From Aneurinibacillus sp. (GTDB taxonomy: Bacteria > Bacillota > UBA5301 > DYFA01): a stretch of 62,943 nt of DNA. A program made the translations under genes and the position numbers. Positions 5,777-37,500 of the stretch are shown here, one piece after another. The first letter of the stretch is position 1. The number at the start of each line of letters is the position of its first letter. The notes beneath the pieces were generated by a model. It was not told the DNA's origin and ran no database searches. It saw only the letters and a program-made list of their open reading frames with translations. The DNA lies in NCBI GenBank assembly GCA_020725425.1, contig DYFA01000032.1, positions 1-62,943 of the forward strand, read 5' to 3'.

Positions 5777-5786
5777 CCGGCCTTAA

Positions 5787-7507: not shown

Positions 7508-7531
7508 GAACTAAAGGGGTGAGAGACTTCC

Positions 7532-9430: not shown

Positions 9431-9482
9431 TTCTTGGCGTCTGCCGACTGAGGGCGGTTGCCGTCTCCGACAGCCGTAAGAA

Positions 9483-9491: not shown

Positions 9492-9557
9492 TTTGTGCCG
9501 GTAACGCAGGGGAAGCCGGCCGGCTAAGCGAATAGTTCAGTCAATAGCGCGTGGGAC

Positions 9558-9612: not shown

Positions 9613-9658
9613 TGTTGGTTGTTCCGGCCCGGGGGGGGGTCGAGGAGGTGCCCGGTGG

Positions 9659-16099: not shown

Positions 16100-16100
16100 G

Positions 16101-17603: not shown

Positions 17604-17676
17604 GGGTTTCCGGAACGAGGCGATTGTCTTAGGTCTAGAAGAACGTTCCAGTTTCGAAGAGAAGGAGGCAAAGCTG

Positions 17677-18663: not shown

Positions 18664-18692
18664 CAGGAATCCTGTCTGAAAGGATAATCGTC

Positions 18693-19658
18693 ATGGCCAA
18701 GGTCGTCATCGTGCAGCCGATCCGCAGCGAAGGAATCGATCTTCTCCTCAAGAACGGCTTTGAAGTCAGGCAACTCGCGGACCGAAGCCTCGACAGCCTC
18801 AAACGGGAGGTGGCGGACGCCGACGCCATGCTCGTCCGGGACGCTCGGATCCCCCGGGAAGTGATCGAGTGCGGGAAGAAGCTGAAGGTCATTTCCCGGC
18901 ACGGGGCCGGCCTTGAGAACATCGACGTCGACGCTGCCACCGAGCACGGCATCCAGGTCACCAATACCCCCGTCGCCAACAGCACCTCCGTCGCCGAGCA
19001 CGTCCTCGGACTCATCCTCAGCCTGGCCAAGAACCTGCAGATCATGGACCGGGCGGTCAGGGACGGCCGCTTCGAGATCCGGCACCAGCGCTACGGCCTG
19101 GAACTCGAGGGGAAGACCCTCGGCATTATCGGCCTGGGCCGGATCGGACGCCGGCTGGCGGCTAAAGCCGCCCTGGGCCTGGGGATGAAGGTGTTGGGGT
19201 ACGACCCCTACGCCGATCCGGCAGCTCTCGATCCCGCCATCCTTGAGGTGACGGGTGACTGGGACCGGGTCTTCCAGGAGTCCGATTTTGTCTCCCTGAA
19301 CCTGCCGCTTACCGAAAAGACCCGGGGGATAGTGGGCAAGCGCGACTTCGCGCTGATGAAAAGGACCGCCTTCTTCATCAACTGCTCCCGGGGCCAGGTC
19401 GTGGTGGAGGGAGATCTTATCGAGGCGCTCCAAGAAGGGCTGATCGCCGGGGCCGGTCTCGACGTCTACGAGACCGACCCCCCCTCCCCCGACAACCCGC
19501 TCCTCAAGATGGAGAATACTGTGCTGACCCCGCACTCCGCGGCTCACACCGAGGAGGCGATGGTCAACATGGCCGTCCACGCCGCTCAAGGCATCGTCGA
19601 GGTCCTGAACGGGCGCCCCCCCACCTGGCCGGTGAACAAGGTTCGGAGCCGGGACTGA
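18693..19658 (+). CDS. D-isomer specific 2-hydroxyacid dehydrogenase
   Basis: A 321-residue NAD-dependent dehydrogenase of the SerA/GhrB superfamily. The nucleotide fold begins at GIIGLGRIGRRLAAK, the catalytic arginine is in NCSRGQVV, and the catalytic histidine in PHSAAHTEEA. There is no ACT domain, so a glyoxylate/hydroxypyruvate reductase or similar role is more likely than serine synthesis. It is followed two bases later by glycerate 2-kinase. Hydroxypyruvate or tartronate semialdehyde reduction to glycerate would link the two (inference). A small perfect inverted repeat GACAGG-AAT-CCTGTC lies at 18662-18676, in the leader. Confidence 0.9.
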   Translation: MAKVVIVQPIRSEGIDLLLKNGFEVRQLADRSLDSLKREVADADAMLVRDARIPREVIECGKKLKVISRHGAGLENIDVDAATEHGIQVTNTPVANSTSVAEHVLGLILSLAKNLQIMDRAVRDGRFEIRHQRYGLELEGKTLGIIGLGRIGRRLAAKAALGLGMKVLGYDPYADPAALDPAILEVTGDWDRVFQESDFVSLNLPLTEKTRGIVGKRDFALMKRTAFFINCSRGQVVVEGDLIEALQEGLIAGAGLDVYETDPPSPDNPLLKMENTVLTPHSAAHTEEAMVNMAVHAAQGIVEVLNGRPPTWPVNKVRSRD

Positions 19659-19660
19659 AC

Positions 19661-21034
19661 ATGAAGGACACCGTGGAAGCATTGCCGTTGATCAAGAACT
19701 ACGCCGAACTCATCTCCCACGGCCAGGCGGGCGTCCGCCGGGATGCCCTGGAGATCGTGGAGGCCGGGATCCGGGGGGCCGACCCGGGACGCGGGACGCG
19801 CAACCTCGTCAAGCTTGACGGGGAGGTTCTCCGGGTGGGCAACCGGACCTACGACCTGCGACAGGTGGACCACATCTACGTCGTCGGCGCGGGGAAGGGG
19901 TCCTTCCCGATCGCTGCGGCGCTTGAGGAGATCCTCGGCCCCCGGATCACCCGGGGCGTAGTGGTCGTCAAAAACGGCGAGCAGCGCCGCCTCGCGCGGA
20001 TCGAAATCCTCGAAGCCGGCCATCCCCTGCCGGACGAAAACAGCGTCTCGGGGGCCAGACAGATCCTCGAACTAGCCGAGCTGGCGGGGCCGCGGGACCT
20101 CGTCTTCGCCGTGTTCACCGGCGGCGCCTCGGCCCTGGCCATCCTTCCGCCGGCCGGCATCGGACTTCAGGAGATCCAGGAGTTGACCGACCTCCTGCTC
20201 AAGTGCGGGGCGCCCATCGACAGAATCAACGCTGTGCGAAAGCACCTCTGCCAGCTCAAAGGGGGGCGGCTGGTCGCCCGGATCCAGCCGGCCGAAGCCA
20301 TCACCCTCACCCTGGACACGGCACCCGAGAACATGCCCTGGCCAGACATGTGTCTGGCTGACCCCTCGACTTTCCAGGACGCCGTCGACATCCTGCGCCA
20401 CTATGATCTTTGGGAGAGGGTCGCCCCTTCCATCCAGGCCTACTTGTTGGAGGGGGTCGCCCGACCCGAGCGGGAGACCGTCAAGAGCCTGGCCGGTATG
20501 AAGGCGGTCCTCTTCAGTGTGGGCGACCCGGTCGGCGCCTGCGAAGCAGCGGCGGACCGGTCCCGCGCCCTCGGCTACCGTCCGGTGATTCTCTCTACCA
20601 GGATCGAAGGCGAAGCCAAGGACCTCGGGATCTTCCTGGCCGGCGTAGCCAGGGAGATCCTGAAGGCGGGCCGCCCGTTCCAGCCGCCGTGTGCCCTGAT
20701 CTCCGGCGGGGAGACGACGGTTACCATCGGTGACACCTGCGGGAGCGGCGGCCCCAACCAGGAGACGGTGCTCGGTTTCGCCCGACACTTGAGTTGCCTG
20801 GCCGACGTGGCCTGCATCGCGGTGGACACCGATGGGACGGACGGGCCCACCGATGCTGCAGGGGGCGTCGCGGACGGGCTGACCTTCGAGCGCGCCCGGG
20901 AGGCCGGCCTGAACCTGGAGGAATATCTCAAGACCCATAACACGCTGGAAGCCCTCGGCCGGTTGAACGATCTGGTCGTCACAGGCCATACCGGCACCAA
21001 CGTGATGAACCTGAGAGTGGTGCTGATCAGATGA
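19661..21034 (+). CDS. Glycerate 2-kinase (MOFRL family)
   Basis: A 457-residue kinase of the GckA/TtuD family that converts D-glycerate to 2-phosphoglycerate. The N-terminal DUF4147 domain carries VVGAGKGSFPIA and VFTGGASAL. The C-terminal MOFRL domain carries LISGGETTVTIGDTCG and DTDGTDGPTDAAGG. It lies between a 2-hydroxyacid dehydrogenase and an enolase-like gene, so the operon appears to run from an imported acid through glycerate to 2-phosphoglycerate. Confidence 0.93.
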   Translation: MKDTVEALPLIKNYAELISHGQAGVRRDALEIVEAGIRGADPGRGTRNLVKLDGEVLRVGNRTYDLRQVDHIYVVGAGKGSFPIAAALEEILGPRITRGVVVVKNGEQRRLARIEILEAGHPLPDENSVSGARQILELAELAGPRDLVFAVFTGGASALAILPPAGIGLQEIQELTDLLLKCGAPIDRINAVRKHLCQLKGGRLVARIQPAEAITLTLDTAPENMPWPDMCLADPSTFQDAVDILRHYDLWERVAPSIQAYLLEGVARPERETVKSLAGMKAVLFSVGDPVGACEAAADRSRALGYRPVILSTRIEGEAKDLGIFLAGVAREILKAGRPFQPPCALISGGETTVTIGDTCGSGGPNQETVLGFARHLSCLADVACIAVDTDGTDGPTDAAGGVADGLTFERAREAGLNLEEYLKTHNTLEALGRLNDLVVTGHTGTNVMNLRVVLIR

Positions 21035-21261
21035 GCTACGAACTCGAGCATCTGGGTGTCATGACGAGCGACCCGGCAGCGCTCGCCGCCTGGTATTGCT
21101 GGGTTTTCGGTTTCGAAATAGTCCTAAGGAGCGACACGAGCCCACCTGCTTTCTTCCTGGCCGGCGGGGGCGGTTCGATGCTGGAGATATGTCCTTGGAA
21201 AGAGGGTGTCCGGGCCTTGAGCACAGGAACGAGGTGGACGCGGTGGGCGACACGATTCTGA
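21031..21261 (+). pseudogene. VOC/glyoxalase family remnant
   Basis: The first 60 residues match the start of VOC proteins (LEHLGVMTSDPAALAAWYCW, then a beta strand ending in MLEICPWKE). The usual second half, with the remaining metal ligands, is missing; the frame runs into unrelated sequence that overlaps the start of the enolase-like gene. It overlaps the kinase stop by four bases and still has a plausible start. I read it as the N-terminal half of a gene cut off when the enolase-like gene was joined. Confidence 0.65.
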
Positions 21262-22505
21262 GCATTGAGGCGCTCGAGATTCTAAGCGGTACCGGCCGGC
21301 CGACGGTGGGCGTGGTTCTGGTCACGACCGGAGGCCTCTTCGTCGAGGCGTCGGTTCCGAGTGGGACGTCTAAAGGCAAGTACGAGGCCTGGGAGTTGCA
21401 TGACGGGGGGGCGCGGTACCGGGGGCTTGGGGTGCAGGTTGCAGTGGAGAATGTCAATCGCCTGATCGCTCCCCGGTTATGCGGACTTGAGGTCGGCGAT
21501 CACAGACGGATCGACAACTTGCTCATCCAGCTGGACGGAACGGAGAACAAGCGACGCCTGGGGGCCAACGCCATCCTGGCCGTCTCGTTGGCTGTCGCCA
21601 AGGCAGCAGCGGCCACCTCCGGGCATCCGCTCTACGTTCACCTCGGGGGGGAGAAAGCCACGCTGCTGCCCGTTCCCGTGGCGACCGTTCTGGCGGGGGG
21701 TAAACACTCCCCTTCGCTCCTGCCGTTTGAGGACTACATGTTCGTGATGAACGGCTTTGATCGTTTCTCTGAGGCGGTGGAAGGGCTGGTCGAAGCCAGG
21801 TACTGTCTGGCAAGGCTCGTTGCGGAACGCTTCGGTAATGTCCCGGAAGAAGGCGGAGCATTGGCGCCGCCCCTCCGAACGACGGAGGAGGCCTTCGACG
21901 TGATGCTCGAGGCGGCAGACCGAGCGGGGGTGGGAGACCGGGTGAGCCTCGGCCTGGACGTGGCTGGAAGCGACCTGTTTATCCCGGAGTCGCGGCGGTA
22001 TCGGGCGGCCGGGTGGGAGCTCACTGCGGACGCCCTGACGGAGTACCTTCTCAGGCTCACCGGACAGTACCCGCTTACCTTCATAGAGGATCCGTTCGAG
22101 CAAGACGACTTCGACAGGTTCGCCCGTCTGACCGCAACCCTGGCCGGCAAGCAGGTCGTAGGTGATGATCTCTTCGCCACCAATCTGAGCAGGATTAAGA
22201 TGGGAATAGAGAAGAAGGCGTGCAATACGCTGCTTCTGAAGATCAACCAGATCGGGACGGTCAGCGAGGCCCTGGACGCGGGGCAGTTAGCTGTCACCAG
22301 CGGCTACGACGTGGTTGTCTCCCTCAGATCGAGCGATACTACGGACAGCTTCATCGCTGACCTGGCAGTCGCTCTTGGGGCGAGGCAAATCAAGCTGGGG
22401 TCACCGGTGCGCGGCGAGCGGAACGCGAAATACAACCGACTGCTTTGGATCGAGCACGAACTCGGCCGGGAGGCGCGTTTCGCCGGCCGGCGCCGCTCGG
22501 GGTGA
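21243..22505 (+). CDS. Divergent enolase paralogue
   Basis: A 420-residue, full-length enolase homologue. N-terminal and barrel motifs are clear: ASVPSG, LDGTENKRRLGANAILAVSL, LTFIEDPFEQDD, VGDDLF, LLKINQIGT. The metal ligands and catalytic lysines appear kept (D in GLDVAGSD, E in FIEDP, D in GDDLF, K in LLKIN, K in QIKLG). The substrate-binding SHRSGETED motif is changed to SLRSSDTTD, losing its histidine, and the QEFMI block reads FEDYMFV. The GTG at 21243 is the probable start. It follows glycerate 2-kinase, whose product is enolase's substrate. It may be a modified enolase or have a new lyase role. Confidence 0.82.
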   Translation: MGDTILSIEALEILSGTGRPTVGVVLVTTGGLFVEASVPSGTSKGKYEAWELHDGGARYRGLGVQVAVENVNRLIAPRLCGLEVGDHRRIDNLLIQLDGTENKRRLGANAILAVSLAVAKAAAATSGHPLYVHLGGEKATLLPVPVATVLAGGKHSPSLLPFEDYMFVMNGFDRFSEAVEGLVEARYCLARLVAERFGNVPEEGGALAPPLRTTEEAFDVMLEAADRAGVGDRVSLGLDVAGSDLFIPESRRYRAAGWELTADALTEYLLRLTGQYPLTFIEDPFEQDDFDRFARLTATLAGKQVVGDDLFATNLSRIKMGIEKKACNTLLLKINQIGTVSEALDAGQLAVTSGYDVVVSLRSSDTTDSFIADLAVALGARQIKLGSPVRGERNAKYNRLLWIEHELGREARFAGRRRSG

Positions 22506-23029: not shown

Positions 23030-24460
23030 CTACTCTGGCGGCGGAGGAGCGTACTTCAGCCACACTTCGTCCACCAGTGCCTTGACCTTCGGGATGGCTC
23101 CCAGGAACCGGTCCTTGATGTCGTCCAGAATTGATCGGTCCCTGGCCTCGAAGCGCAGGGTGAGGAGGGGCTCGGTGACGGAGACCCGGAGGAGGCCCCA
23201 GCCATCGGGCCACTCGGCGCGGACGCCGTCCAGGAGGCTGAGTTGGCAGTCGTCGCGGGCGCGGAGGGCAGAGGCGAGGGTGGAGAGGAGTTCGGCCTGG
23301 TCCGAGTCGTGGTAGGGGAGGCGGATGTCCGGCGTGGTGAAGTAGGCGGGGAGCTGGGAGACGAGCCGGGCCAGACTGCCGCCGTTCTCCCGGACCAGGT
23401 CGGCGACGAGGAGGGCGGCGAAGAGGCCGTCGTCCCCGCCCAGCCTGGCGAAGAAGAAGTGTCCGCTGATCTCCCCGGCGAAGACCGCCCCTTCCTTGAG
23501 CAGGGTGGTCTTGATGAAGGCGTGGCCGGACTTCTCCATCAGGGGTATCCCGCCGGCCTCCCGGACCGTTTCCGGGACGAGGGTCGAGCACTTGAGGTCG
23601 AAGACGACCTTCCCGCCGGGATTGGCCTGGAGGAGGTGGCGGGCCAGGAGGGCGATCATCTGGTCGCTCGGCACCACCCGGCCGCGCTCGTCGACGAAGG
23701 CCACCCGGTCGCCGTCCCCGTCGAAGGCGACGCCCAGGGTGGCATCTTCTTCGGGGACTTTCCGGCAGAGCGCCGCCAGGTTGGCGGCGATAGCGGGGTT
23801 GGGTTCCCGGTTGGGGAAGGCCCCGTCCTCCTCGGAGAAGAGACGGCGCACGTCGTAGCCGAGCTCCGCGAAGAGTTCGGGAGCGATCCGGCTGTAGCAG
23901 CCGTTGCCGCAGTCCAGGACGACCCGCGTCTGGTCGGGGGGGATCGGGTTCGGGGGAACTGGGAGAGTTCCGGCGTGCTCGTCCCGGATGCCGCTCAGGG
24001 TCGCCTTGAGGTGATCCCGGTAGTCGGGGAGGAGGTCGAGGGTGACCAGGGTGCCGCCGGGGCGCTCGGCGAAGCTCCGCTGTTCGATCAGGGTTTGGAG
24101 GCGGACGATCTCCTCCTCGGTGATCGGCCAGTCGCCGAGGGTGATCTTGAAGCCGTTGTATCTGGCGGGGTTGTGCGAGGCGGTCACCATCACGCCGCCC
24201 GGGATCGCCAGCTGCCGCTTGGCGAAGTAGAAGGCGGGAGTGGGAAGGATCCCCAGGTCGACGATCTGGCAGCCCGTCTCGAAAAGGCCGGTGAGAAGCC
24301 CCTGTTTGAGGGCGGGAGTGCTGACGCGGACGTCGCCGCCGACCGCGACCGGCCCGCCGCCGAGGACGGTGCCGACGGCGCGGCCGAGGTCTGCGGCGAA
24401 CTGGACGGTGAGCTCGTCGGGGTAGACGCCCCGGATGTCGCAAGCCTTGAAGATACTCAT
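23030..24460 (-). CDS. Phosphomannomutase/phosphoglucomutase
   Basis: A 476-residue alpha-D-phosphohexomutase. The phosphoserine loop is MVTASHNPARYNG, the metal loop is GVAFDGDGDRVAF, the sugar loop is in AGEISGHFFF, and a C-terminal phosphate-binding domain follows. It starts with FKACDIRGVYP, the usual N-terminus of bacterial PMM/PGM. It is the last gene of the minus-strand sugar operon, five bases after the FGGY kinase. It may serve the sugar pathway or simply be carried by the operon for cell-wall sugar supply. Confidence 0.9.
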   Translation of the reverse strand: MSIFKACDIRGVYPDELTVQFAADLGRAVGTVLGGGPVAVGGDVRVSTPALKQGLLTGLFETGCQIVDLGILPTPAFYFAKRQLAIPGGVMVTASHNPARYNGFKITLGDWPITEEEIVRLQTLIEQRSFAERPGGTLVTLDLLPDYRDHLKATLSGIRDEHAGTLPVPPNPIPPDQTRVVLDCGNGCYSRIAPELFAELGYDVRRLFSEEDGAFPNREPNPAIAANLAALCRKVPEEDATLGVAFDGDGDRVAFVDERGRVVPSDQMIALLARHLLQANPGGKVVFDLKCSTLVPETVREAGGIPLMEKSGHAFIKTTLLKEGAVFAGEISGHFFFARLGGDDGLFAALLVADLVRENGGSLARLVSQLPAYFTTPDIRLPYHDSDQAELLSTLASALRARDDCQLSLLDGVRAEWPDGWGLLRVSVTEPLLTLRFEARDRSILDDIKDRFLGAIPKVKALVDEVWLKYAPPPPE

Positions 24461-24465: not shown

Positions 24466-25947
24466 TCAGACCTCCTCCGAAGCGAGATAGCCCCGCTTGG
24501 ACATCTCCGCCAGGAAGTCGCGGTAACGGTCGGCGTAGCAGGCGGTCAGCGCCGGGTCGGGCGAAGTCTCGCTCTCGACGGTCACCATCCGGTCCGCCGC
24601 CTCGCAGAGGGAGCCCCAGTGCGTCCGGGAGGCCGCCAGGATGGCCGCTCCCATGTGGGCCCCGGTCACCTTCGGCTTCTGCAGCGTTTTGTTGAGGATG
24701 CTGGCCCGGATCCGGAGCCACTCGGGGCTCTTCGTCGCCCCGCCGGCCACATAGATCCGCTTCCCGACCTCGGCGCCGAGGCGGGAGAGGACATCGTAGG
24801 CCAGCCGCTCGACGTAGCCCACGCCCTCGAGATATCCCTGGTAGAGCTCGTACCGATCGGCCGGCTGCCCGGCCACGAAGCCTTCGGCCTCCGGGTCGAC
24901 GATGGGGAAGCGCTCCCCCTTCTTCTGCAGAGGGTAGATGAGCAGGGTGGTGGGTGGGCGGTTCCGGATGGCGCGGTTGAGGGCGTCGAACTCCTCCCGC
25001 TGGAAGTGGAGCTCGAGGCAGTCTCCCCCGACGTTGCTGGCGCCTCCCGGCATCCAGTAGCCGTCGGGGTGGCGGTGCGAGTAGATCCTTCCTTTGGGGT
25101 CGAGGAGGAGGCGGCTGGTCACGCCCTTGAGGACCAGTGTGGTGCCGATGGTCGTGTTCCACGCGCCGGGCCGCACCGCCCCGGAGGCGATCTGCGAGGT
25201 GCAGCCGTCGGTCATGCCGAGGACGACGAGGGTGGACCGGGCGAGGCCGGTCGCCGCGGCGCACTCCGCGGTGACCCGGCCGATCGGGGTGCCCGGCGGG
25301 AGGACGGTGGGCAGGGTGGAGAGGGGCAGGCCGAGGAAGTCCTCGATAAAGGCGGGCCAGGCCTCGGCCACCAGGTCGTAGCCGCTCTTGAGGGCGGTGG
25401 AGTAGTCGGTGATCCCGGACTCCCCGCAGAGCTTGGTCAGGATGTAGTCGCCGGCGTGGGCGAAGAGCCTGGTGCGGGCGAAGAGGTCGGGGCGCTGCTC
25501 CTTCAGCCAGAGCATCTTCGGCAGGCCGAAGGAGGCGTTGAACTTGTAGCCGAGCTTCGCTGTCAACTCCTCGGCGGCGGCGTTCACCCGGGCGGCCTGC
25601 GCCCCGCTCCGGCGGTCGTTGTACATGATCGCCGGGCCCAGCGGCTCGCAGTGCTCGTCCAAGGCGAGGATCGTCCCGGAGGTGGAGGTGACGCTCACGG
25701 CGTGGATCCGGCTGGGGTGGTGGCCGGCGCGCCGGAGGAGGGAGACGGTCCGGGCGATCGCCTCTCTGGTGGCCTTCCACCACAGGACAGGCGGCTGTTC
25801 GAACCACCCCTCGGGCAAAAGCGGGGCGGCGCCGGAGAGAGGGAAGTCCTGGGACGCCTCGGCTAAGACCTCGCCTGCCTCGTTGACGGCGAGCGCCCGG
25901 GCGCCCTGGGTGCCGACGTCGATCCCGAGAAAGAGCCTCTCCGCCAT
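24466..25947 (-). CDS. FGGY-family carbohydrate kinase
   Basis: A 493-residue sugar kinase. The N-terminal ATPase fold begins LFLGIDVGTQGARALAV. The catalytic aspartate is in VVLGMTDGCTSQIASG, and the C-terminal ATP-binding block is KRIYVAGGATKSPEW. Members phosphorylate xylulose, ribulose, erythritol, rhamnulose, glycerol and others; specificity cannot be read here. Its operon has TpiA-like and RpiB-like isomerases typical of four-carbon sugar phosphate metabolism, two class II aldolases and a RuBisCO-like protein. Its substrate is therefore probably a four- or five-carbon ketose or polyol. ATG 25947 lies just after the aldolase stop. Confidence 0.9.
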   Translation of the reverse strand: MAERLFLGIDVGTQGARALAVNEAGEVLAEASQDFPLSGAAPLLPEGWFEQPPVLWWKATREAIARTVSLLRRAGHHPSRIHAVSVTSTSGTILALDEHCEPLGPAIMYNDRRSGAQAARVNAAAEELTAKLGYKFNASFGLPKMLWLKEQRPDLFARTRLFAHAGDYILTKLCGESGITDYSTALKSGYDLVAEAWPAFIEDFLGLPLSTLPTVLPPGTPIGRVTAECAAATGLARSTLVVLGMTDGCTSQIASGAVRPGAWNTTIGTTLVLKGVTSRLLLDPKGRIYSHRHPDGYWMPGGASNVGGDCLELHFQREEFDALNRAIRNRPPTTLLIYPLQKKGERFPIVDPEAEGFVAGQPADRYELYQGYLEGVGYVERLAYDVLSRLGAEVGKRIYVAGGATKSPEWLRIRASILNKTLQKPKVTGAHMGAAILAASRTHWGSLCEAADRMVTVESETSPDPALTACYADRYRDFLAEMSKRGYLASEEV

Positions 25948-25951: not shown

Positions 25952-26623
25952 TCATCCCCGCTCCGCCTGCTCCAGGAGTTGCTTGCGGTACTTCTCGGAG
26001 CCGAGGTTGCGGATCGCCTCCACCTCGGCGGGGGAGAGGGTTCGGGGGGAACCGAGGGACCTGGCGGCAATAAGGATCCGAGAGGCCTCCTCGATCAATT
26101 CGGTGCGGAAGAGCGCCTCCCTGAGGTTGGACCCGACCGTCAGCGCTCCGTGGTTGGTGAGGAGGAGGCCGTCGCAGCCGCCGATTACCGATTCCACGGC
26201 CTCGGCGAGCTCCCTGGTGGTGGGGATGACGTAGCCCAGCGTGGGGACCTCTCCCAGAAAGGCAGCGAAGTCGGGGAACAGCGGTTCAAGCGTTACGCCG
26301 CAGCTCGCCACGGCGATGGCCAGGGGCGGATGGGTATGGACCACGGCCCCGATCTCCGGGCGCTTCCGGTAGCAGGCGAGGTGCATGAGGACTTCCGAGG
26401 AGGGCTTCTTTGAGCCGTCGACGAGCTGGCCGGTGGCGAGGTCGACGCCGACGTAGTCGTCCCCGGTAGCCTCCTCGAAGGAGGAGCCGCTGGCGGAGAT
26501 GTACATGAGCCCGCCGCAGCGGGCGCTGATGTTCCCGCCCGGCCCCACGACCAGGCCCTTTTTGGCGATCAGCCGGCCGCACTCGACGAGCTCCTCCCGG
26601 GTGCGCCGGGCGTCAGCGGTCAT
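25952..26623 (-). CDS. Class II aldolase/adducin family protein, copy 2
   Basis: A 223-residue zinc-dependent aldolase-fold protein. Zinc-site histidines are in AVVHTHPPLA and, later, LLTNHGALT; the catalytic glutamate lies in KPSSEVLMH. It begins with the GNISAR block that binds the phosphate. The family includes fuculose and rhamnulose phosphate aldolases, ribulose-phosphate epimerase and decarboxylating enzymes. It is only moderately similar to the neighbouring aldolase and overlaps its end by 11 bases, so the two probably catalyse different steps. Confidence 0.9.
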   Translation of the reverse strand: MTADARRTREELVECGRLIAKKGLVVGPGGNISARCGGLMYISASGSSFEEATGDDYVGVDLATGQLVDGSKKPSSEVLMHLACYRKRPEIGAVVHTHPPLAIAVASCGVTLEPLFPDFAAFLGEVPTLGYVIPTTRELAEAVESVIGGCDGLLLTNHGALTVGSNLREALFRTELIEEASRILIAARSLGSPRTLSPAEVEAIRNLGSEKYRKQLLEQAERG

Positions 26624-27260
26624 GCCCGGTCCCTCCCTCGCCGGCCGCGGGGATGATCTGCAGCTTCGTGCCGAGCTCGTAGAGGAAGGCCACCTGGGCG
26701 GTCTCCTCGATCAACTCCGCCGTGTGCTCGGCCTCCAGCACGTCCGGGCCGACCGCCACCACGCCGTGGGCCCCCAGGATGAAGGCGGCGAGGTCCGGCT
26801 TGGCTGTAAAGAGGTTCAGGACCTCCGGTATCTCCTCCAGCAGGACCCCTTGAGGCGAGGAGAAGAACCGCACCGGGATGGGAGCCCCCAGCTTGAGCTG
26901 GGTGTGCATGGTCAGGAGGGGAAGGTCCCGGCGGGTGAAGGACCAGGCGATGGCCCACGGGGAGTGGGTGTGGACGATGCCCCCGATGGTCGGGAGGTGC
27001 TTGTAGAGCTCACCGTGGAGGACGGACTCCCGGGTGGGCTTGCGAGTCCCCTCGACGATGTTCCGGTCGAAGTCGGTCACGGTCAGGTTCTCGGCGGTGC
27101 AGTCGATGAGCGAGACTCCGCTCGGCTTGACCACCATCAGGTTCTCGCCCGGCACGCGGACGCTGATGTTTCCTCCGTTTCCAGTCTGGATGCCCCGGGT
27201 GTAGGCGCGCCGGGCGGCCTCGACGAACTGGGCTTTCGCAATCTGTAGGGCGTCGCTCAT
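26613..27260 (-). CDS. Class II aldolase/adducin family protein, copy 1
   Basis: A 215-residue class II aldolase. The substrate phosphate block is GNGGNISVRV, the catalytic glutamate is in TRESVLHGELY, and the zinc histidines are in GIVHTHSPWA and LGAHGVVAVG. It lies 36 bases after the RuBisCO-like gene and overlaps the second aldolase. In a sugar-phosphate operon it could cleave a ketose 1-phosphate to dihydroxyacetone phosphate and an aldehyde. Confidence 0.9.
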   Translation of the reverse strand: MSDALQIAKAQFVEAARRAYTRGIQTGNGGNISVRVPGENLMVVKPSGVSLIDCTAENLTVTDFDRNIVEGTRKPTRESVLHGELYKHLPTIGGIVHTHSPWAIAWSFTRRDLPLLTMHTQLKLGAPIPVRFFSSPQGVLLEEIPEVLNLFTAKPDLAAFILGAHGVVAVGPDVLEAEHTAELIEETAQVAFLYELGTKLQIIPAAGEGGTGHDR

Positions 27261-27296: not shown

Positions 27297-28580
27297 TCAG
27301 GCTTTAGGACCCCAGTGGTGCAGGGCCTGTTGCAGCTCGGGATGGTCCTGGGCGGCCTCGGCCAGGTCCCGGCCGGCGATGGTGGCCTCGACCGCCTGCA
27401 TCATGGCCCGGGCGCCTGCCGTGGCGCCCTGGGGATGCCCCTGCACCCCGCCGCCGACGGCGATGATGATGTCCGGCCCCAGGTCGCGGTAGAGCGGGGT
27501 CACGTTAAGCGGCGTCACTCCGCCGCCGACCACGCTAAAGACCGGCTTGAGCCGGCCGAGGGGCAGCCGGTGGGCCTGGACCGTCCGGAGCAGGTCGAAG
27601 TAGCCGGGGCCCTGGCCGCCGGCCGGGTACATCGTGACCACGGCGTCGGCTCCGGCAAGCCGGGGCAGGCGGCCGAGGAGCGTCGGGACGCTGATCCCCT
27701 GGTCCTCGCCGTTGCCGATGATCCCGGCCCCGGCGAAGTGGCCGAGGAAGAAGAGGTCCCGGCCGAACTCGGCGGTGAGGGAGGCCAGGGCGTCGAAGCC
27801 GGTCAGGACGAAGTTGACCATGACCCCTTTGGCGCCGGCCTCGAGCGCCGCCCGGGCGTTGTCTCGCATCCGCTCCGGGCGGTCAGTGATGTTGGGCAGG
27901 TAGAGCGGGGCCCGTCCCATCTCCTCCTGGATGCGCCGGGCCGCGGCGAGGTACGCCTTGACCCGCCCAGCCACGCTGCTGAAATCGGTGCTGCCCAGAA
28001 GCTCGTCGTCTTTGATCAGGTCCACGCCCCCACTGCCAACGGCATAGAAGAGGTCTGCCCCGACCTCCGGCGGGTAGCCGGTGCAGGGTTTGAGCATGTT
28101 CATGACCAGGGGGCGGCCCTCGACGCCGGTGAGGCGACGCAACCCCGGAATCCCGTGAGCCGGGCCGGGGAAGGCTTCGATCGCTTTCCCGACCAATTCC
28201 AGGTCGATCAGCTTGGCCCGGAGGGCGGTCGAAGCGTCGTTCCCGACCAGGGCGGTGAGGAGCATGGCGAAGCTGGTTCCGAAGTTGGCCCGGGGGAAGG
28301 CGACCCGGAGGAGGTAGGTCCCCTCCCCGGCGGCAGAGGTGTCCCGGGCGGGGGAGACGGGGTAGCAACCGACGACCCTGGCCTCGTGGTTCCGCACCAT
28401 CTCTTGAGTAATACCGGGCACCGGGACCCAGGTCCCGACCGTCTGGCCGACGGCGAAGTTGCCGACCCGGGTCAGGACCTTCTCCTCGGGGAGACCGTAG
28501 GCCAGATAGGTCGCCAGGACGTAGTCGCCCTCCGGAAGGGACTCGGGGTGGTCGAAGGGCAGGGCGAAGTACGGCAGCAT
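27297..28580 (-). CDS. RuBisCO-like protein (form IV-type large subunit homologue)
   Basis: A 427-residue RuBisCO large-chain homologue. The metal-binding loop is conserved: GGVDLIKDDE around residues 184-193 keeps the carbamylated lysine (K190), D192 and E193. The first active-site lysine is kept (K164 in NMLKPCTGYP), but the second lysine of the KPK motif is a cysteine, and the loop-6 lysine is missing (TMYPAGGQGPGYFD). The phosphate-binding glycine blocks VGGGVTP and VGGGVQGHPQG remain. It thus should enolise or decarboxylate a phosphorylated keto-acid or ketose, not fix CO2. RuBisCO-like decarboxylases are known in D-apiose catabolism. Confidence 0.9.
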   Translation of the reverse strand: MLPYFALPFDHPESLPEGDYVLATYLAYGLPEEKVLTRVGNFAVGQTVGTWVPVPGITQEMVRNHEARVVGCYPVSPARDTSAAGEGTYLLRVAFPRANFGTSFAMLLTALVGNDASTALRAKLIDLELVGKAIEAFPGPAHGIPGLRRLTGVEGRPLVMNMLKPCTGYPPEVGADLFYAVGSGGVDLIKDDELLGSTDFSSVAGRVKAYLAAARRIQEEMGRAPLYLPNITDRPERMRDNARAALEAGAKGVMVNFVLTGFDALASLTAEFGRDLFFLGHFAGAGIIGNGEDQGISVPTLLGRLPRLAGADAVVTMYPAGGQGPGYFDLLRTVQAHRLPLGRLKPVFSVVGGGVTPLNVTPLYRDLGPDIIIAVGGGVQGHPQGATAGARAMMQAVEATIAGRDLAEAAQDHPELQQALHHWGPKA

Positions 28581-29862: not shown

Positions 29863-30675
29863 CTAGCGGACCCGCGGGGCCGGGATGACCTCCTGCCGCT
29901 TCAAGAGCTCCTCGATGGCGGGTTCGTGGGAGGGAAGGATGTACTCCCGGGCCTTGGCCCGCGCCTTCAGCTCCTCGATGCTCTTCCAGCACTCCACGAT
30001 ATTGGCGAACCGGGCCGGAGGGGTCAGGTTGTAGTGGATCTCCGGTATGGGATCCAGGTTGTCGTAGATGAAGATGGAGTCGCCGCAGCAGATGTACGTG
30101 CCCTCCGCCGTGTCGATCTCGACTGACTGGTGTCCCGGCGAGTGGCCCGGGCTGGGGAAGACCCGGACGCCGGGCATGAGCTCCTCCTCGCCGTCGACGA
30201 CGTCCACCTTGAGTCCCTCGAAGGGCCGGCGGATGCCGAGGGCGGGGTGCTCGTAGGACTTGTAGTAGAGCGGGATGGGATCCAGGGCGAACTCGTACTC
30301 CTTCCGGTGGGCGATGAACTTGGCCTTGGTGAACTTATCCATGTAGTACATGTGGTCCCAGTGCAGGTGGGTGAAGACCACGAGTCCGACGTCCTCCGGC
30401 TTCAAGCCGATCTGGGCCAGCCGTTCGTGGATGGCAAACCCCTCCGGCTGGATCGAGCCGGGGTGGTGGTACTTGTCGGCGCGATAGGTGTCGGCCATGC
30501 CGGTGTCGACGAGGACCAACTGGTCTCCGCCCTCGATGAGATAGACGATCGCGGGCAGGAGCAGCTTCGTGTCGTCGACGTTCCGGTAGGCGTGAGTGCT
30601 GTGGTGGTAGTGGTATTGTTTCTTGTAGGTTGGCACGTACCCGGTCACGATCGGTCGGATGGTCAGCTGGCTCAT
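29863..30675 (-). CDS. MBL-fold metallo-hydrolase (lactonase-like)
   Basis: A 270-residue metallo-beta-lactamase-fold hydrolase, closest in outline to the N-acyl homoserine lactonase family. The dinuclear zinc motif is FTHLHWDHMYYM, with further ligands in SPGHSPGHQS, ICCGDSIF and the late PSHEPA. In a sugar operon it may open a sugar lactone, since a lactonase step occurs in oxidative pentose pathways; quorum quenching is less likely in this context. It sits between the ABC permeases and the Tm-1-like gene on the same strand. Confidence 0.85.
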   Translation of the reverse strand: MSQLTIRPIVTGYVPTYKKQYHYHHSTHAYRNVDDTKLLLPAIVYLIEGGDQLVLVDTGMADTYRADKYHHPGSIQPEGFAIHERLAQIGLKPEDVGLVVFTHLHWDHMYYMDKFTKAKFIAHRKEYEFALDPIPLYYKSYEHPALGIRRPFEGLKVDVVDGEEELMPGVRVFPSPGHSPGHQSVEIDTAEGTYICCGDSIFIYDNLDPIPEIHYNLTPPARFANIVECWKSIEELKARAKAREYILPSHEPAIEELLKRQEVIPAPRVR

Positions 30676-30696: not shown

Positions 30697-31638
30697 TTAG
30701 TTGGCCCACTTCTTCATCTGCAGGTCGATGAAGACGGCTGTCAGAATGACCGCCCCGAGGACGATCTGGTGCCAGAGGGCTGGAACGCCCATCAGGTTCA
30801 GGCCGTTGACCACCAGGGTCAGGATGATGGCGCCGATGACCGTCCCGGTCACCCGCCCCTCCCCGCCCAAGAGGGAGGTTCCACCCATGACCACCGAGGC
30901 GATGCCCTGCATCAGGAAGGGCTCGCCCATACCCAGTTCGGCGGCGTCCAGGCGGGCTGTCATGAGCAGCCCGGCGATGCCTGCAGTAAGCCCGCTCAGC
31001 GTGTAGACCAGGATGGTAATCTTGCAGACGCTGACGCCGGAGTAGTAGGCGGCGTCGCGGTTGGAGCCCAGGGCGTAGATGTCCCGGCCGACGACGGTCT
31101 TCGTCAGGAAGAAGTCGAAGGCCAGAACCAGGATGGCGGTGAGGATGATCGGGACGGGAATCGGGCCGACGTAGCCCACGCCGACCCACCGGTAGCTCGA
31201 GGGGAAGCCGAAGATGATCTGCCCCTGCATCAGGAGGAGGGCCAGTCCCTCCGCGATCCACTTCGCCCCGTAGGTGGCGACGAAGGGCGGGAGCTTGATC
31301 ACCCCGACCATGACCCCGTTCAGGAATCCGACCGCCGTCCCGACGGCCAGCCCGATCAGCACCGCCACGGGGATCGGCAGGCCGGATTTGAGGAGCTGGG
31401 CGGTGGTGCAGCCGACCAGCGCCAGGACTCCCCCGACGGAGAGGTCGATCCCGGCCGTCAGGATGACCGCGGTCAGGCCGAGGCCGACGATCACCAGCAG
31501 GGTGGCCTGGCGCAGGACGTTGATGATGTTGGTCCAGGTCAGGAAGTTCTCGTTCATAATGGTCAGGGCGATGCAGAGCGCAGCCACGAAGGTCAGGCGG
31601 AAGATCGGCGCGATCAGCGCCCGGACGTTCCGGTTCAT
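30697..31638 (-). CDS. Ribose-type ABC transporter permease, second copy
   Basis: A 313-residue RbsC/AraH-family permease with 8-10 hydrophobic helices. The family motifs VILTAGIDLSVGGVLAL and, near the end, VVMGGTSLLGGEGRVTGTVIGA are clear. It overlaps the other permease gene by four bases. Two different permease genes suggest a heterodimeric channel in place of the usual RbsC homodimer. Confidence 0.93.
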   Translation of the reverse strand: MNRNVRALIAPIFRLTFVAALCIALTIMNENFLTWTNIINVLRQATLLVIVGLGLTAVILTAGIDLSVGGVLALVGCTTAQLLKSGLPIPVAVLIGLAVGTAVGFLNGVMVGVIKLPPFVATYGAKWIAEGLALLLMQGQIIFGFPSSYRWVGVGYVGPIPVPIILTAILVLAFDFFLTKTVVGRDIYALGSNRDAAYYSGVSVCKITILVYTLSGLTAGIAGLLMTARLDAAELGMGEPFLMQGIASVVMGGTSLLGGEGRVTGTVIGAIILTLVVNGLNLMGVPALWHQIVLGAVILTAVFIDLQMKKWAN

Positions 31639-32600
31639 TGCGCCTTGAGCCCCCCTTCGACCGTCTGGCGGAACCTGACGTCCAGGACGATGGTCCCCAG
31701 CACGACCAGTCCGATCAGGGCGAACTGGTACATGTTGTGGACCCCGGCCACGTTCAGGCCGTTCCGGAGGATGGAGATGAGGAGGACCCCGAGGACGGTC
31801 TTGCCGATGCCGCCCTTGCCCTCCTCAAAGGAGGTGCCGCCGATGATCGTGGCGCCGATGGCGTCGAAGTCCCAGCCCATGGCGGCGGCGGCATACCCGG
31901 AGCCGGTCCGGGAGGCGACGAGTAGCCCGGCGACGGCGGCCAGGAGGCCGGAGACGCCGTAGACCAGGATGGAGACCCGCCGGGTGTTGACCCCGACCAC
32001 CCGCAGGGCCTCCGGATTGCCGCCCAGCGAGATGACGTTCCGGCCGAAGGCAGTCTCGTACATCAGAAGCCAGCAGATCCCGAAGACCGCTGCCGCCAGG
32101 ATGATCGACATGTTGACCCCGGCCAGGCTCCCGTTCGTCAGGAACAGGAGGACCGGATCGAGGGCCTGGATGGACTGGCCCTCGGTCAGCACCAGGCCGA
32201 CGCCGTAGGCCATGCTCCCCACGCCGAGGGTGGCGATGAAGGGCGGGAGGCCCACGCTGGCGACCATCACCCCGTTAGTCAGGCCGCAGAGGAAGCCGGC
32301 CCCCAGCCCGCCCAGCATGGCCCACCAGATCCCGAGGCCCGCCTTGAGCAGGAGCGAGACGACCACGCTGACGAGCCCCATGATGAACCCGACGGAGAGG
32401 TCGATCCCCTCGGTCAGGATGACCGTCGTCACCCCGACCGCCACGATGAGCAGGGGAGCGGCCTGCATCGCCACGTTGGTCAGGTTGCTCAGGGTGAAGA
32501 AGCCGGGCGCGACCTTGCCGTAGATCAGGCACATCAGGACCACGATCCAGATGGCGGGCGGGATCTGCCGCCACTGGCCGAGGAGAGTCTTAACTTGCAT
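31635..32600 (-). CDS. Ribose-type ABC transporter permease, first copy
   Basis: A 321-residue RbsC-like permease. The motifs VILTEGIDLSVGFIMGL and ATIIGGTSFEEGKGGIGKT match the family. It overlaps the ATPase stop by 11 bases and the next permease by four. It would pair with the downstream permease and the RbsA-like ATPase. Confidence 0.93.
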   Translation of the reverse strand: MQVKTLLGQWRQIPPAIWIVVLMCLIYGKVAPGFFTLSNLTNVAMQAAPLLIVAVGVTTVILTEGIDLSVGFIMGLVSVVVSLLLKAGLGIWWAMLGGLGAGFLCGLTNGVMVASVGLPPFIATLGVGSMAYGVGLVLTEGQSIQALDPVLLFLTNGSLAGVNMSIILAAAVFGICWLLMYETAFGRNVISLGGNPEALRVVGVNTRRVSILVYGVSGLLAAVAGLLVASRTGSGYAAAAMGWDFDAIGATIIGGTSFEEGKGGIGKTVLGVLLISILRNGLNVAGVHNMYQFALIGLVVLGTIVLDVRFRQTVEGGLKAQ

Positions 32601-34113
32601 TGGTCTTCACCCCCGTGCCGATGCCGAGCATCAGCGAAGCGATCTTCTCCTGGTTGGCCTCGCCGTGTTTGAACTCGCCCACGATCCGCTTCTGGAAGAG
32701 CACGTAGATCCGGTCGCTCATCCCCAGGACCTCGGGGAGGTCGGAGGAGATCATGATGATCGCATTGCCTTCCTGGGCCAGTTGGTCCATGAGGGCGTGA
32801 ACCTCGGCCTTGGCTCCGACGTCGATGCCCCGGGTGGGCTCGTCGAAGATGAGGATCTTGGCCTTGGTGTCCAACCACTTGGCCATGACGACCTTCTGCT
32901 GGTTGCCGCCGCTCAGGTAGCGGACCTGGCGCAGGACGGACGGGGTGACGATCCGGAGCTTCTCCACGTACTCCCGGGCGATGCTCTGGACCTTCCGCTC
33001 CCGGACGACGCCCCGCGGGAAGTGCCGCCGCAGGCTGGCCATCACCGTGTTCCAGTGAACAGGGCTCTTCAGCGCCAGGCCGAACCGCTTCCGGTCCTCG
33101 GAGAGCAGCCCGACGCCGAGCTGGATCATCTGGTTGGGCGAGCGCGGGGTGACCTTCCTCCCGTCGATGAGGAGTTCACCCTTCTGGATGGGGTCGATCC
33201 CGAAGATCCCCCGGACCAGCTCGGTCCGGCCGGCCCCGACGAGGCCCGCCAGCCCGACGATCTCCCCGTAGCGGACGACGAAATCCGCCTCCTGCGGCCC
33301 GCCTTTGACCGAGAAGCCCTGGAGCCGCAGGGCCTCGGCTCCCGGCGCACGGCGGCTCCGAGGGTACATCTGGGAGATGCTCCGGCCCACCATCATCTCG
33401 ACCAGTTGGTCGTCGGAGACGTCCCGGATGTTCACCGTCCCGACGTACCGGCCGTCCCGGAGGACGGTCACCCGGTCGCCGATCTTCCGGATCTCCTGGA
33501 GGCGGTGCGAGATGTAGACGATTGCCACGCCCTGCCGGCGCAGCTCCTCGATCCGCTCGAAAAGCCGGCTGACCTCCCGGTCGGTGAGCATGGCGGTCGG
33601 TTCATCCAAAACGAGCACCCTCGGGCTGGTCGAAAGGACCTTGCTGATCTCCACCATCTGCTGGAGGGCGGTGTCCAGGTGTTTCACCGGCAGCCTGGTG
33701 TCCACCTCGAGCCCGAAGGCGGAAAGGATCTCCCGGCTCTCCTCGTGCATCCGGCGGTGGTCGACGAAAGGCAGACCTTTCCACCGCCGGGGCTCCCGGT
33801 TGAGAAAGATGTTCTGAGCCACGTTCAACCAAGGCACCAGCATGAACTCCTGGTATACACCGCCGATACCGTGCTGTCGGGCGTCCAGAGGGCTCCGGAG
33901 CCTGATCGGCCGCCCCTCGAAGAGGATCTCCCCCTCGTCGGCGGCGATCACGCCCATCAGGATCTTGGAGAGGGTGCTCTTGCCGGCGCCGTTCTCGCCG
34001 ATCAGGACGTGGACCTCTCCCGGCCGGACGTCGAAGTTGACGCCGTCGAGCGCCCGGACACCCGGAAACTGCTTCACGATTCCTCTTGCCTCAAGAATCG
34101 GCTGCGAACTCAC
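32590..34113 (-). CDS. Ribose-type ABC transporter ATP-binding protein (duplicated ATPase)
   Basis: A 507-residue RbsA/XylG-type ATPase with two nucleotide-binding domains. The first is complete: GENGAGKSTLSKIL, signature near TALQQMVEISKVLS and Walker B VLVLDEPTAML. The second has a degenerate Walker A (GLVGAGRTELVRGI), as usual in this family, but keeps LSGGNQQKVVMAKWL and LIFDEPTRGIDVG. It energises uptake of the sugar bound by the upstream receptor. Confidence 0.94.
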   Translation of the reverse strand: MSSQPILEARGIVKQFPGVRALDGVNFDVRPGEVHVLIGENGAGKSTLSKILMGVIAADEGEILFEGRPIRLRSPLDARQHGIGGVYQEFMLVPWLNVAQNIFLNREPRRWKGLPFVDHRRMHEESREILSAFGLEVDTRLPVKHLDTALQQMVEISKVLSTSPRVLVLDEPTAMLTDREVSRLFERIEELRRQGVAIVYISHRLQEIRKIGDRVTVLRDGRYVGTVNIRDVSDDQLVEMMVGRSISQMYPRSRRAPGAEALRLQGFSVKGGPQEADFVVRYGEIVGLAGLVGAGRTELVRGIFGIDPIQKGELLIDGRKVTPRSPNQMIQLGVGLLSEDRKRFGLALKSPVHWNTVMASLRRHFPRGVVRERKVQSIAREYVEKLRIVTPSVLRQVRYLSGGNQQKVVMAKWLDTKAKILIFDEPTRGIDVGAKAEVHALMDQLAQEGNAIIMISSDLPEVLGMSDRIYVLFQKRIVGEFKHGEANQEKIASLMLGIGTGVKTNAS

Positions 34114-35791: not shown

Positions 35792-36568
35792 TCAATCGGT
35801 GGCCCGGTTATGCCAGTGCGATGCGTCTTCGATGATCCCCCGGAAACGCTCGACATCCAGTGCCGAGCGCCCCACGAACAGGCCGTCCACGTCGGGGAGA
35901 CGGCAGAGCTTCCCCGCGGTGTCCGGGGTCACGCTCCCCCCGTAGACGATCTTGAGTCTCTCCGCCGCGGCCTGCCCGAGCAGGCCGGCCACCGTCCGGC
36001 GCAGGTGGGCGTGCATCTCCTCGACGTACCCCGGGGACGCTGCCTCATCCACACCGATGGCCCAGGCCGGCTCGTAAGCCAGGAGGAAGTCCCCGGTCTC
36101 CGCAGGGTCCACGCCCGCCAGCACCACTTCCAACTGGCGTTCAAGGTGGCGGCGCACCTCCGTCTCTGCGGCCCGCCCTTCCTCCCCGAGGCAGACCACC
36201 GCCCTCAAGCCCGAGTCCAGCGCCCGGCGGAGTTTCCGGTTGACCTCCCGGTCGGTCTCGCCGAAGTAGCGCCGGCGCTCCATGTGGCCGAGCTCGACGT
36301 GGGTGCACCCGAGCTCCTTGAGCATCCCGGCGGAGAGCTCCCCCGTGTAAGGGCCCGCTTCCGCCCAGTGCATGTTCTGGGCACCATAGCCCACGGGAGT
36401 GCCGCCGAGGATGCGCCCGGCGTCGACCAGACAGACCGCCGGGACGAAGGCGAACAGCTCGACCTCCCGAAACCCGCCGAGGGTGCCGGCCAGCTGCTCC
36501 ATCCAGGCGACCGTGTCCCGGTAGCCCAGGTACATCTTGATGTTGGTGCCCACCGCCAGCTGCCGCAT
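35792..36568 (-). CDS. Triosephosphate isomerase paralogue (LerI-like)
   Basis: A 258-residue TIM-barrel protein related to TpiA. The catalytic residues are kept: K11 in GTNIKMY, H95 in ELGHMERR and E166 in AYEPAWAIG. The usual serine after the histidine (GHSERR) is methionine, and the N-terminal NWKMN is NIKMY, so this is a paralogue and not the glycolytic enzyme. Such paralogues act as L-erythrulose 1-phosphate isomerases next to RpiB-like partners. It follows the regulator by 20 bases in the operon. Confidence 0.88.
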   Translation of the reverse strand: MRQLAVGTNIKMYLGYRDTVAWMEQLAGTLGGFREVELFAFVPAVCLVDAGRILGGTPVGYGAQNMHWAEAGPYTGELSAGMLKELGCTHVELGHMERRRYFGETDREVNRKLRRALDSGLRAVVCLGEEGRAAETEVRRHLERQLEVVLAGVDPAETGDFLLAYEPAWAIGVDEAASPGYVEEMHAHLRRTVAGLLGQAAAERLKIVYGGSVTPDTAGKLCRLPDVDGLFVGRSALDVERFRGIIEDASHWHNRATD

Positions 36569-36588: not shown

Positions 36589-37305
36589 TCAGTCACGGGA
36601 CTCGCCCGACGCCTCGGCCACGAGATCGATCATCTCCTGAGCGTGGCGGCGGATGGTCGCACTCACCAGGCGCTGGACGCCTTCGGCGTCCCCGGCCTTG
36701 AGCGCCTCGATGAAGGCTTGGTGTTCCTGTTGGGTCTGGTGCCCCTTGGACCGGCTCTTGGAGTACAGGAGGCGGTAATAGGCGATACTGTCCCAGAGCG
36801 ACCTGATCAGATTGTAGAGGCGGGGTTTGCCCGAAGCGGCGTAGAGGGTGAAATGGAACTCTTTGTTCAACTCCTGCTGGCGGATGCGGTCGCCCTTCTC
36901 GACGCACTCGGCGATCGCCCGGTTGATGCGTTCGAGTTCCTCGATCTCCCGGGGGGTGATCCGCTGGGCGGCGAAGTACGCCGCTTTCCCTTCCAGCATC
37001 TCCCGGAGCATGTAGACCTCTTCGATCTCCTGGGCGGTCAACTGCTTCACCCAGGTTCCCCGGTAGGGGGCCGATTCAAGGTACCCGCCCGCCTCGAGTA
37101 CCCGCAGAGCTTCCCGGACCGGCGAGCGGCTGACCCCCAGCTTGGAGGCGAGGTCCTCGGCCGTCAGGCGCTGGCCGGCCTTGAGAGTGCCGTTCACGAT
37201 CCACTCGATGATCTGTTGAGTCACCAGTTCGGAGAGGCGTTGGTACCGGTTGAGGAGGTAATTCTCGGGCACTTCGGCCGCCCCTGAGTCCCTGATGTCC
37301 ATCAT
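36589..37305 (-). CDS. GntR family transcriptional regulator, FCD domain (sugar operon)
   Basis: A 238-residue regulator with an N-terminal GntR winged helix (LGVSRSPVREALRVLEAGGY) and a C-terminal FCD ligand domain. AGGAGG stands eight bases before ATG 37305. It is the first gene of a 14-gene minus-strand operon, and a palindrome TGTATCCA-C-TGGATGCA lies inside its own promoter, so autoregulation with control of the whole operon is likely. Confidence 0.9.
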   Translation of the reverse strand: MMDIRDSGAAEVPENYLLNRYQRLSELVTQQIIEWIVNGTLKAGQRLTAEDLASKLGVSRSPVREALRVLEAGGYLESAPYRGTWVKQLTAQEIEEVYMLREMLEGKAAYFAAQRITPREIEELERINRAIAECVEKGDRIRQQELNKEFHFTLYAASGKPRLYNLIRSLWDSIAYYRLLYSKSRSKGHQTQQEHQAFIEALKAGDAEGVQRLVSATIRRHAQEMIDLVAEASGESRD

Positions 37306-37373
37306 CCAGCGGGCCTCCTTTCCTCGCACACCAGGCAATTCCGGACCAAGTGGATTCTGAATGCGGAGGATTC

Positions 37374-37399
37374 TGTATCCATTGTATCCACTGGATGCA
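37374..37399 (-). promoter_or_regulatory. Candidate GntR operator within the sugar-operon promoter
   Basis: TGTATCCA at 37383-37390 and TGGATGCA at 37392-37399 form an inverted repeat with one mismatch and a one-base centre. A direct copy of TGTATCCA lies at 37374-37381, nine bases away. The palindrome covers the -10 element and part of the spacer of the promoter on the minus strand. Confidence 0.6.
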
Positions 37400-37410
37400 G
37401 TGATTGTCAA
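37381..37410 (-). promoter_or_regulatory. Sigma-A-type promoter of the sugar operon
   Basis: On the minus strand TTGACA (37410-37405) and TACAAT (37386-37381) are 18 bases apart. It lies 75 bases before the regulator gene and appears to be the only strong promoter of the 14-gene operon. The 37306-37559 gap between the divergent regulators contains this and the PadR promoter and no gene. Confidence 0.72.
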
Positions 37411-37500
37411 TTGTGAACATTTTACGCCTTCATTGGGAAAAGCAGCCATCGGTGGAGGGCGGGGTCAACCCGCCTGCTTCAGGACCGCCTAAAAACCCCA

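Follow-up and report, generated by a model that had tools for sequence, protein, structure and literature searches.

A RuBisCO-like protein in a sugar operon of Aneurinibacillus sp.: a candidate decarboxylase of a phosphorylated 3-keto sugar acid

The RLP gene and its operon

The window, the whole stretch of DNA analysed here, comprises 62,943 nucleotides of contig DYFA01000032.1 of Aneurinibacillus sp. and contains on its minus strand an intact 427-aa frame (28580..27297) for a RuBisCO-like protein (RLP). A first-pass annotation had placed an RLP at 27297-28580 and had given no strand; the assignment is confirmed, and the plus-strand frame at these positions is not the RLP gene. The protein matched PF00016 at E 2.3e-46 (158.8 bits; cut-off 30.1), a match not due to chance, and its AlphaFold model gave Z 47-49 to MtnW-type RLPs, including Z 48.2 across 401 residues to liganded 2oem, and Z 42-46 to RuBisCOs. 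Given this match, the fold and the changed carboxylase residues described below, it is a form IV RLP of the RuBisCO superfamily. The source genome has no other PF00016 protein and no paralogue was found in it; 40 of 398 genomes sampled from the phylum (source genome included) matched it at E ≤1e-40, the nearest other RLPs of that sample having 69 and 67% identity.

The RLP start codon (ATG) lies 1 bp past the stop of a UPF0261 gene, within a minus-strand operon that reads in the following order:

36589..37449, minus strand: GntR-family regulator
35792..36568, minus strand: TPI-like isomerase (LerI/EryH-like candidate), below the TPI cut-offs; second copy in genome
35250..35753, minus strand: RpiB-like isomerase (DerI/EryI-like candidate), 151.9 on the DerI model (cut-off 240) and 165.3 on PRK05571 (cut-off 135); second copy in genome
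34177..35196, minus strand: sugar-binding protein, RbsB-like
32590..34113, minus strand: sugar ABC ATPase
31635..32600, minus strand: sugar ABC permease
30697..31638, minus strand: sugar ABC permease (ribose/allose type)
29863..30675, minus strand: MBL-fold lactonase-like hydrolase (AHL-lactonase/4-pyridoxolactonase superfamily), PF00753
28582..29808, minus strand: UPF0261 (Tm-1-like) protein, predicted kinase partner; full-length member, PF06792/PF23189
27297..28580, minus strand: RLP, 427 aa, PF00016; AlphaFold model pLDDT 92.0, pTM 0.91
26613..27260, minus strand: class II aldolase/epimerase-fold protein A, PF00596 at 7e-41; no NCBIfam cut-off reached; shared in window-type operons
25952..26623, minus strand: class II aldolase-fold protein B, PF00596 at 1.1e-47
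24466..25947, minus strand: FGGY carbohydrate kinase, PF00370/PF02782; absent from the L031 and L032 loci
23030..24460, minus strand: phosphohexomutase, end of the run; not common to relatives

The MBL protein scored below every NCBIfam lactonase cut-off, with AiiA relatives matching at 1.7e-19, and the phosphohexomutase perhaps stands outside the pathway. The RpiB and TPI genes lie 7.6-8.3 kb from the RLP gene. Since the source genome holds another, canonical TPI (contig C25) and another RpiB, the operon copies look dedicated. The window TPI has the motifs GTxxKM and DGLFxGRSA common to oiaX-linked TPIs, whereas the canonical copy has AGNWKM and DGALVGGAS; its overall identity to the two kinds is similar (39% and 41%, respectively). 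Two further runs of genes lie on the plus strand of the window, one (4754-12366) with an ABC importer (SBP_bac_6), a xylose-isomerase-like TIM barrel, an FAD oxidoreductase with a BFD-like [2Fe-2S] domain and a pyridine-nucleotide oxidoreductase, and the other (16011-22505) with TctA and TctC transporter parts, a phosphoglycerate-dehydrogenase-like 2-hydroxyacid dehydrogenase, a glycerate 2-kinase and an enolase over its cut-off.

Active-site residues and phylogenetic place

Residues were read from an alignment of 120 sequences, with RuBisCO numbering transferred from Afipia form I RuBisCO (L137). Counts were made on 92 non-redundant KPC relatives (≤95% identity), left from 101 context rows after eight more than 95% identical rows and one non-KPC row (L050) were dropped, and on reference rows comprising six MtnW-type RLPs, two OiaX, six RLPs linked to an acid-sugar kinase and one form I RuBisCO. 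The MtnW-type rows L027-L030 and the KPC rows L020 and L022-L024 belong to the alignment and to the 29-row count given below and stand outside the 92.

The metal lysine and acids are present in the window RLP (K190, D192, E193), and the earlier suggestion that carbamylation and Mg binding are probably possible fits this retained triad. Both active-site lysines that the first-pass annotation had read as lost are indeed replaced: the motif NMLKPCTG keeps RuBisCO K175 as K164 and has C166 at the K177 position (KPK to KPC), and G322, in the stretch MYPAGGQGPG, aligns with loop-6 K334. Further losses affect R295 (F282), H327 (V315) and S379 (G352). N123 and H294 are kept as N114 and H281, as are T65, W66, G381, G403 and G404 (T50, W51, G354, G376 and G377), which we take to form the P1-phosphate site.

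Throughout the 92 KPC relatives, K175, K201, D203, E204 and H294 were kept and K177 was replaced by Cys, an invariance that for L051-L130 is partly ascertainment, because the scan behind these rows used a KPC pattern. K177 was also absent from all 14 other RLPs aligned (six MtnW-type, two OiaX and six kinase-linked), so that KPC alone says little about the reaction; the emphasis that the first-pass annotation had laid on it is corrected here, and KPC was dropped as a mechanistic clue. Unlike the loss of K177, the state of loop 6 is informative, K334 being kept in 49 of the 92. The N123 position was Asn in 91 of the 92 and Lys in all six MtnW-type rows; N114 of the window RLP aligns with K98 of Geobacillus kaustophilus MtnW, the general base of that enzyme. 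Neither the window RLP nor the MtnW-type rows have R295 or H327, while the OiaX and kinase-linked rows keep R295 and the kinase-linked rows also keep H327. Loss of these two P2-site residues points to a mono-phosphate substrate, and the residues kept indicate that the window RLP can plausibly bind a metal and one phosphate, without the carboxylase set or the MtnW base.

A scan of species genomes yielded at least 546 KPC relatives of the window RLP, those listed spanning Bacillota, Chloroflexota, Actinomycetota, archaeal and other contigs, and the window together with a pattern-free search of the phylum gave 29 rows, 24 KPC and five MtnW-type. We found in the literature neither published work on the KPC clade or its function nor a measured activity for any member. 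The comparison with characterised RLP groups, which had been proposed earlier as a check, was made with a tree of 76 rows and a careful tree of 36 rows. Both united the KPC and MtnW sequences in one group (support 100/100 in the 36-row tree), separate from OiaX and the RLPs linked to a kinase. A topology joining the clade-II KPC rows to the latter two was rejected (p-AU 0.0013), and one with KPC as a clade of its own, excluding MtnW, was disfavoured (p-AU 0.018). The window RLP belongs to clade II (support 100/98), which contains all 20 RpiB/TPI-linked rows of the 76-row tree, the window's label having been set by hand. In the 36-row tree MtnW was placed inside the KPC group beside clade II, on a long branch that makes the placement tentative; the methionine-salvage enolase MtnW may thus have arisen from a KPC-type ancestor. 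For the DeepYkr RLPs (methylthioribulose-1-P isomerases, with RLP1 of R. rubrum and R. palustris), the Rhodopseudomonas palustris RLP of structure 3qfw, which we take to be RLP1, scored 105.5 bits against 222.9 for 4nas, and the tree was built without DeepYkr rows.

Gene neighbourhoods of the KPC relatives

The loci L031 and L032, whose RLPs have 67-69% identity to that of the window, share the ABC importer, MBL protein, UPF0261, RLP, aldolase A, RpiB and TPI; the second aldolase, the FGGY kinase and the mutase had no match in the stretches of these loci examined. Within 6 kb of the RLP genes of the 92 KPC relatives, UPF0261 was found in 41 and FGGY in 33, both together only in the window, and an MBL gene in 14, always with UPF0261. 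RpiB and TPI occurred together in 19, RpiB alone in one, TPI alone in three and neither in 69, the window being scored without them because its copies lie beyond 6 kb. Neither isomerase was found near any of the 49 relatives with the loop-6 lysine, against 20 (RpiB) and 22 (TPI) of the 43 relatives lacking it. In a local control on 39 loci flanked by ≥9.5 kb of sequence in each direction, genes within 4 kb were compared with those in the 5.5-9.5 kb zone: UPF0261 20 vs 0, PEP-hydrolase-like 11 vs 0, FGGY 13 vs 3, RpiB 12 vs 3, TPI 11 vs 4, aldolase A 10 vs 2, MBL 7 vs 3 and GntR 4 vs 2. As the loci share common ancestry, Fisher p-values for these neighbourhoods are inflated and are not probabilities of independent events. 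The idea that UPF0261 strictly replaces FGGY is weakened by FGGY genes farther out, one about 10 kb off in L097 (two of the 41 loci within 10.5 kb) and one divergent to the operon on the L069 contig.

Other arrangements were also seen. Loop-6-Lys KPC RLPs of L035-L046, L099, L111, L114 and L115 adjoin PEP_hydrolase-like TIM barrels (PF09370), UPF0261 and, in most cases, a ComB-like phosphatase. A third gene order, in which the RLP usually stands between an FGGY kinase and a saccharopine-dehydrogenase-like oxidoreductase, occurs in Chloroflexota, archaeal and other contigs (L083, L088, L096, L098, L100, L106, L107, L113, L118, L123, L124 and L127). A Pfam scan of 10 flanking proteins for oxidoreductases common to window-type operons found a single AFOR, upstream in L051.

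The UPF0261 protein of the window is a full-length member of the UPF0261/Tm-1 family, and differs from 9mpy and plant Tm-1 in that its gene immediately precedes that of an RLP within a sugar operon. It matched the structures 9mpy (1.2e-53) and Tm-1 3wry (1.9e-56), its model giving Z 34.0 and 42.4-42.8, respectively, and 9mpy is a Novosphingobium aromaticivorans UPF0261 relative with bound acetovanillone. We take MarK to be Saro_1862, and the TIM-barrel domain of plant Tm-1L to be a PF09370 domain. The available part of PMC13101465 describes acetovanillone catabolism in N. aromaticivorans as beginning with the single-component kinase MarK, which together with the 9mpy ligand suggests that UPF0261 is a kinase family. 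By this analogy, the UPF0261 protein is probably the kinase of the RLP operon. No classical kinase was among the 50 matches listed in its fold comparison, which is no evidence either way, and the available parts of PMC11837543 and PMC13406360 hold nothing on UPF0261. UPF0261 and the TIM-barrel domain are fused in plant Tm-1L, according to the accessible portion of PMC5028733, in which no link of the Tm-1 family to RLPs was found.

A parallel to the operon's isomerases is offered by OiaX of D-apiose/apionate catabolism in Rhizobiaceae, whose product is L-erythrulose 1-phosphate. The Rhizobium loci L149 and L150 contain oiaX, an acid-sugar kinase, TPI, RpiB, a phosphogluconate-dehydrogenase-like protein and a ribose-type ABC importer, and in one Agrobacterium locus oiaX is accompanied by a sugar ABC importer and a gene of the MBL lactonase family; the RpiB-like and TPI-like isomerases and the ribose-type importer are thus common to both systems, as are RuBisCO family membership and the metal triad. 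However, OiaX has about 32% identity to the window RLP and keeps R295 and the loop-6 lysine, both missing in the window sub-clade, so that the likeness of chemistry is one of context, not residues. The OiaX loci use a DUF1537 kinase where the window operon has UPF0261; no DUF1537 acid-sugar kinase was found in the RLP operon, the genome's only PF07005 match being on contig C32. With a score of 153 on the OiaX model NF042437 (cut-off 700), the tree test given above and no DUF1537 neighbour, orthology to OiaX was rejected. An RLP of Agrobacterium radiobacter decarboxylates 3-oxo-isoapionate-4-phosphate, as stated in the part of PMC6302742 available.

A further clue comes from gut relatives. UlaG, the ascorbate-6-phosphate lactonase, stands in the co-directional RLP run of the Erysipelotrichaceae/Solobacterium loci L069, L086 and L097 (590-592 bits, cut-off 306); that of L069 matched PDB 2wyl at 2.9e-143, and L085 holds a UlaG fragment. 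UlaD was not found in the genomes of these three loci, where the only PF00215 protein detected in each is PyrF; the single PF00215 protein of the source genome is likewise PyrF. UlaE-type proteins occur in all three (276.3, 273.8 and 270.3 bits, the last just under the cut-off of 272.15), and L162 has a UlaE-AraD pair outside the RLP operon, several kb upstream, with which a C5 product would agree as well as a C4 one. No UlaG over the cut-off was found in 10 further genomes (nine relatives and the window's own); the ascorbate clue therefore comes from one bacterial family, and the window would rely on its MBL enzyme. A PTS near some RLPs is GAT-like, below its cut-off, and at most a candidate UlaA. 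An FGGY kinase and a regulator of the SorC/DeoR type lie divergent to the UlaG-RLP operon in L160 (5352-8548) and L162 (2869-5366), joined in L160 by a class II aldolase. The ula pathway would share with the window operon an Mg-dependent decarboxylation of a 3-keto acid phosphate after a lactonase, and it differs in PTS rather than ABC import and in the OMP-decarboxylase fold of UlaD (PF00215), which is unrelated to the PF00016 RLP.

Proposed reaction and its alternatives

Given this context, we propose, at about even odds (roughly 0.5), that the window RLP of KPC clade II is a catalytically active enzyme that, dependent on Mg, decarboxylates a lactone-derived, phosphorylated 3-keto sugar acid. 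The ABC importer would take up a sugar lactone or the corresponding acid, opening of the lactone would fall to the MBL enzyme, and UPF0261, in the window perhaps also FGGY, would phosphorylate the acid. The RLP, with Mg2+ held through carbamylated K190, D192 and E193 and the single phosphate in the retained P1 site, could then decarboxylate the beta-keto sugar acid phosphate via an enediolate, in the chemical reverse of the RuBisCO carboxylation step. Its product would be a ketose phosphate, probably a tetrulose phosphate, which the TPI-like and RpiB-like isomerases may convert to erythrose 4-phosphate, leaving the class II aldolases on a side or downstream branch. This order is preferred because it uses most of the conserved genes. 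The residues, the predicted fold, the operon and its conservation, and the position in the tree are observed, whereas metal binding, the reaction, the substrate and the sequence of steps are inferred from residues and context. Two candidate substrates lead on equal terms, 3-oxo-isoapionate 4-phosphate and the phosphate of a 3-keto acid that comes from a lactone of the ascorbate type. The former had been named in the first-pass annotation and stays in play, although the RLP stands apart from OiaX in the tree and in model score and its operon lacks DUF1537. Among the points that weigh against this reading are the distance of RpiB and TPI from the RLP gene in the window, and the ability of class II aldolase-fold proteins to decarboxylate 3-oxo acids themselves, which would leave the RLP another step (aldolases A and B scored 85.8 and 113.3 bits on the OtnC-type model, cut-off 250).

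The first-pass annotation had suggested an enolase or a decarboxylase acting on a phosphorylated substrate; both fit the protein, and its interpretation is supported in part. In the enolase/isomerase alternative, which we consider rather unlikely, aldolase A, like MtnB, would dehydrate a ketose 1-phosphate and leave tautomerisation of the product to the RLP, paralleling MtnB-MtnW on another substrate. MtnW-type proteins are the nearest relatives of solved structure, whether judged by sequence or by fold, KPC joins MtnW in a single group, R295 and H327 are missing from the window RLP and MtnW alike, and on the model of MtnB aldolase A reaches 76.5 bits (cut-off 137.05); yet the lysine of MtnW is Asn at the base position of nearly all KPC relatives, the RLP misses both MtnW cut-offs (269.5 vs 409; 213.4 vs 513.6), the lactonase would not be needed and the tetrulose-phosphate-type isomerases would be unexplained. 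Asn114 at the MtnW catalytic-lysine position and an isomerase pair like that downstream of OiaX favour decarboxylase over enolase. That the RLP is MtnW itself, the methionine-salvage DK-MTP-1-P enolase (YkrW), is very improbable even though its top NCBIfam matches are MtnW models, MtnW is the closest characterised lineage by tree and fold, and mtnA occurs once in the genome (461 bits): unlike in an mtn operon, no mtn genes adjoin it, grouping the window with MtnW is disfavoured (p-AU 0.031), and with Asn114 and the missed equivalog cut-offs this identity was set aside.

OiaT yields a phosphoglycerate and a C2 acid. An OiaT-like cleavage of the 3-keto sugar acid phosphate, by hydrolysis or transcarboxylation, seems improbable, despite the same substrate class, similar operon genes, glycerate-2-kinase and enolase-type genes in the window at 19661-22505 and a precedent in another RLP, OiaT, which performs this cleavage according to the available part of PMC6302742. 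Hydrolysis would give no tetrulose phosphate and leave the RpiB/TPI pair unexplained, and the kinase-linked RLP group, which may include OiaT, keeps R295, H327 and K334. Residual carboxylation of a sugar phosphate is the least credible reading. The window RLP shares with RuBisCO forms I-III the fold, the metal triad, K175 and the P1 site, but differs at K334, R295, H327, S379 and K177 (G322, F282, V315, G352 and C166), on which ground carboxylation, which the first-pass annotation had excluded from the residue pattern, was rejected as very unlikely.

Few RLP functions are known, the reactions including proton abstraction, isomerisation, decarboxylation and oxygenation (PMC10176493, in the part available). 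Decarboxylation by the window RLP, if true, would mean that this reaction arose in two separate RLP lineages, and would point to a function in metabolism for UPF0261, the family to which the plant resistance protein Tm-1 belongs. More tentatively, it is possible that in anaerobes KPC clade II took over decarboxylation in the catabolism of ascorbate-like or branched sugar lactones, replacing UlaD and arising separately from OiaX, with UPF0261/Tm-1 as the sugar-acid kinase, loss of the loop-6 lysine marking the switch and MtnW perhaps branching inside KPC. The operon model would explain one sub-clade of a large KPC clade, and the result tells where in the RuBisCO superfamily the loop-6 lysine is dispensable.
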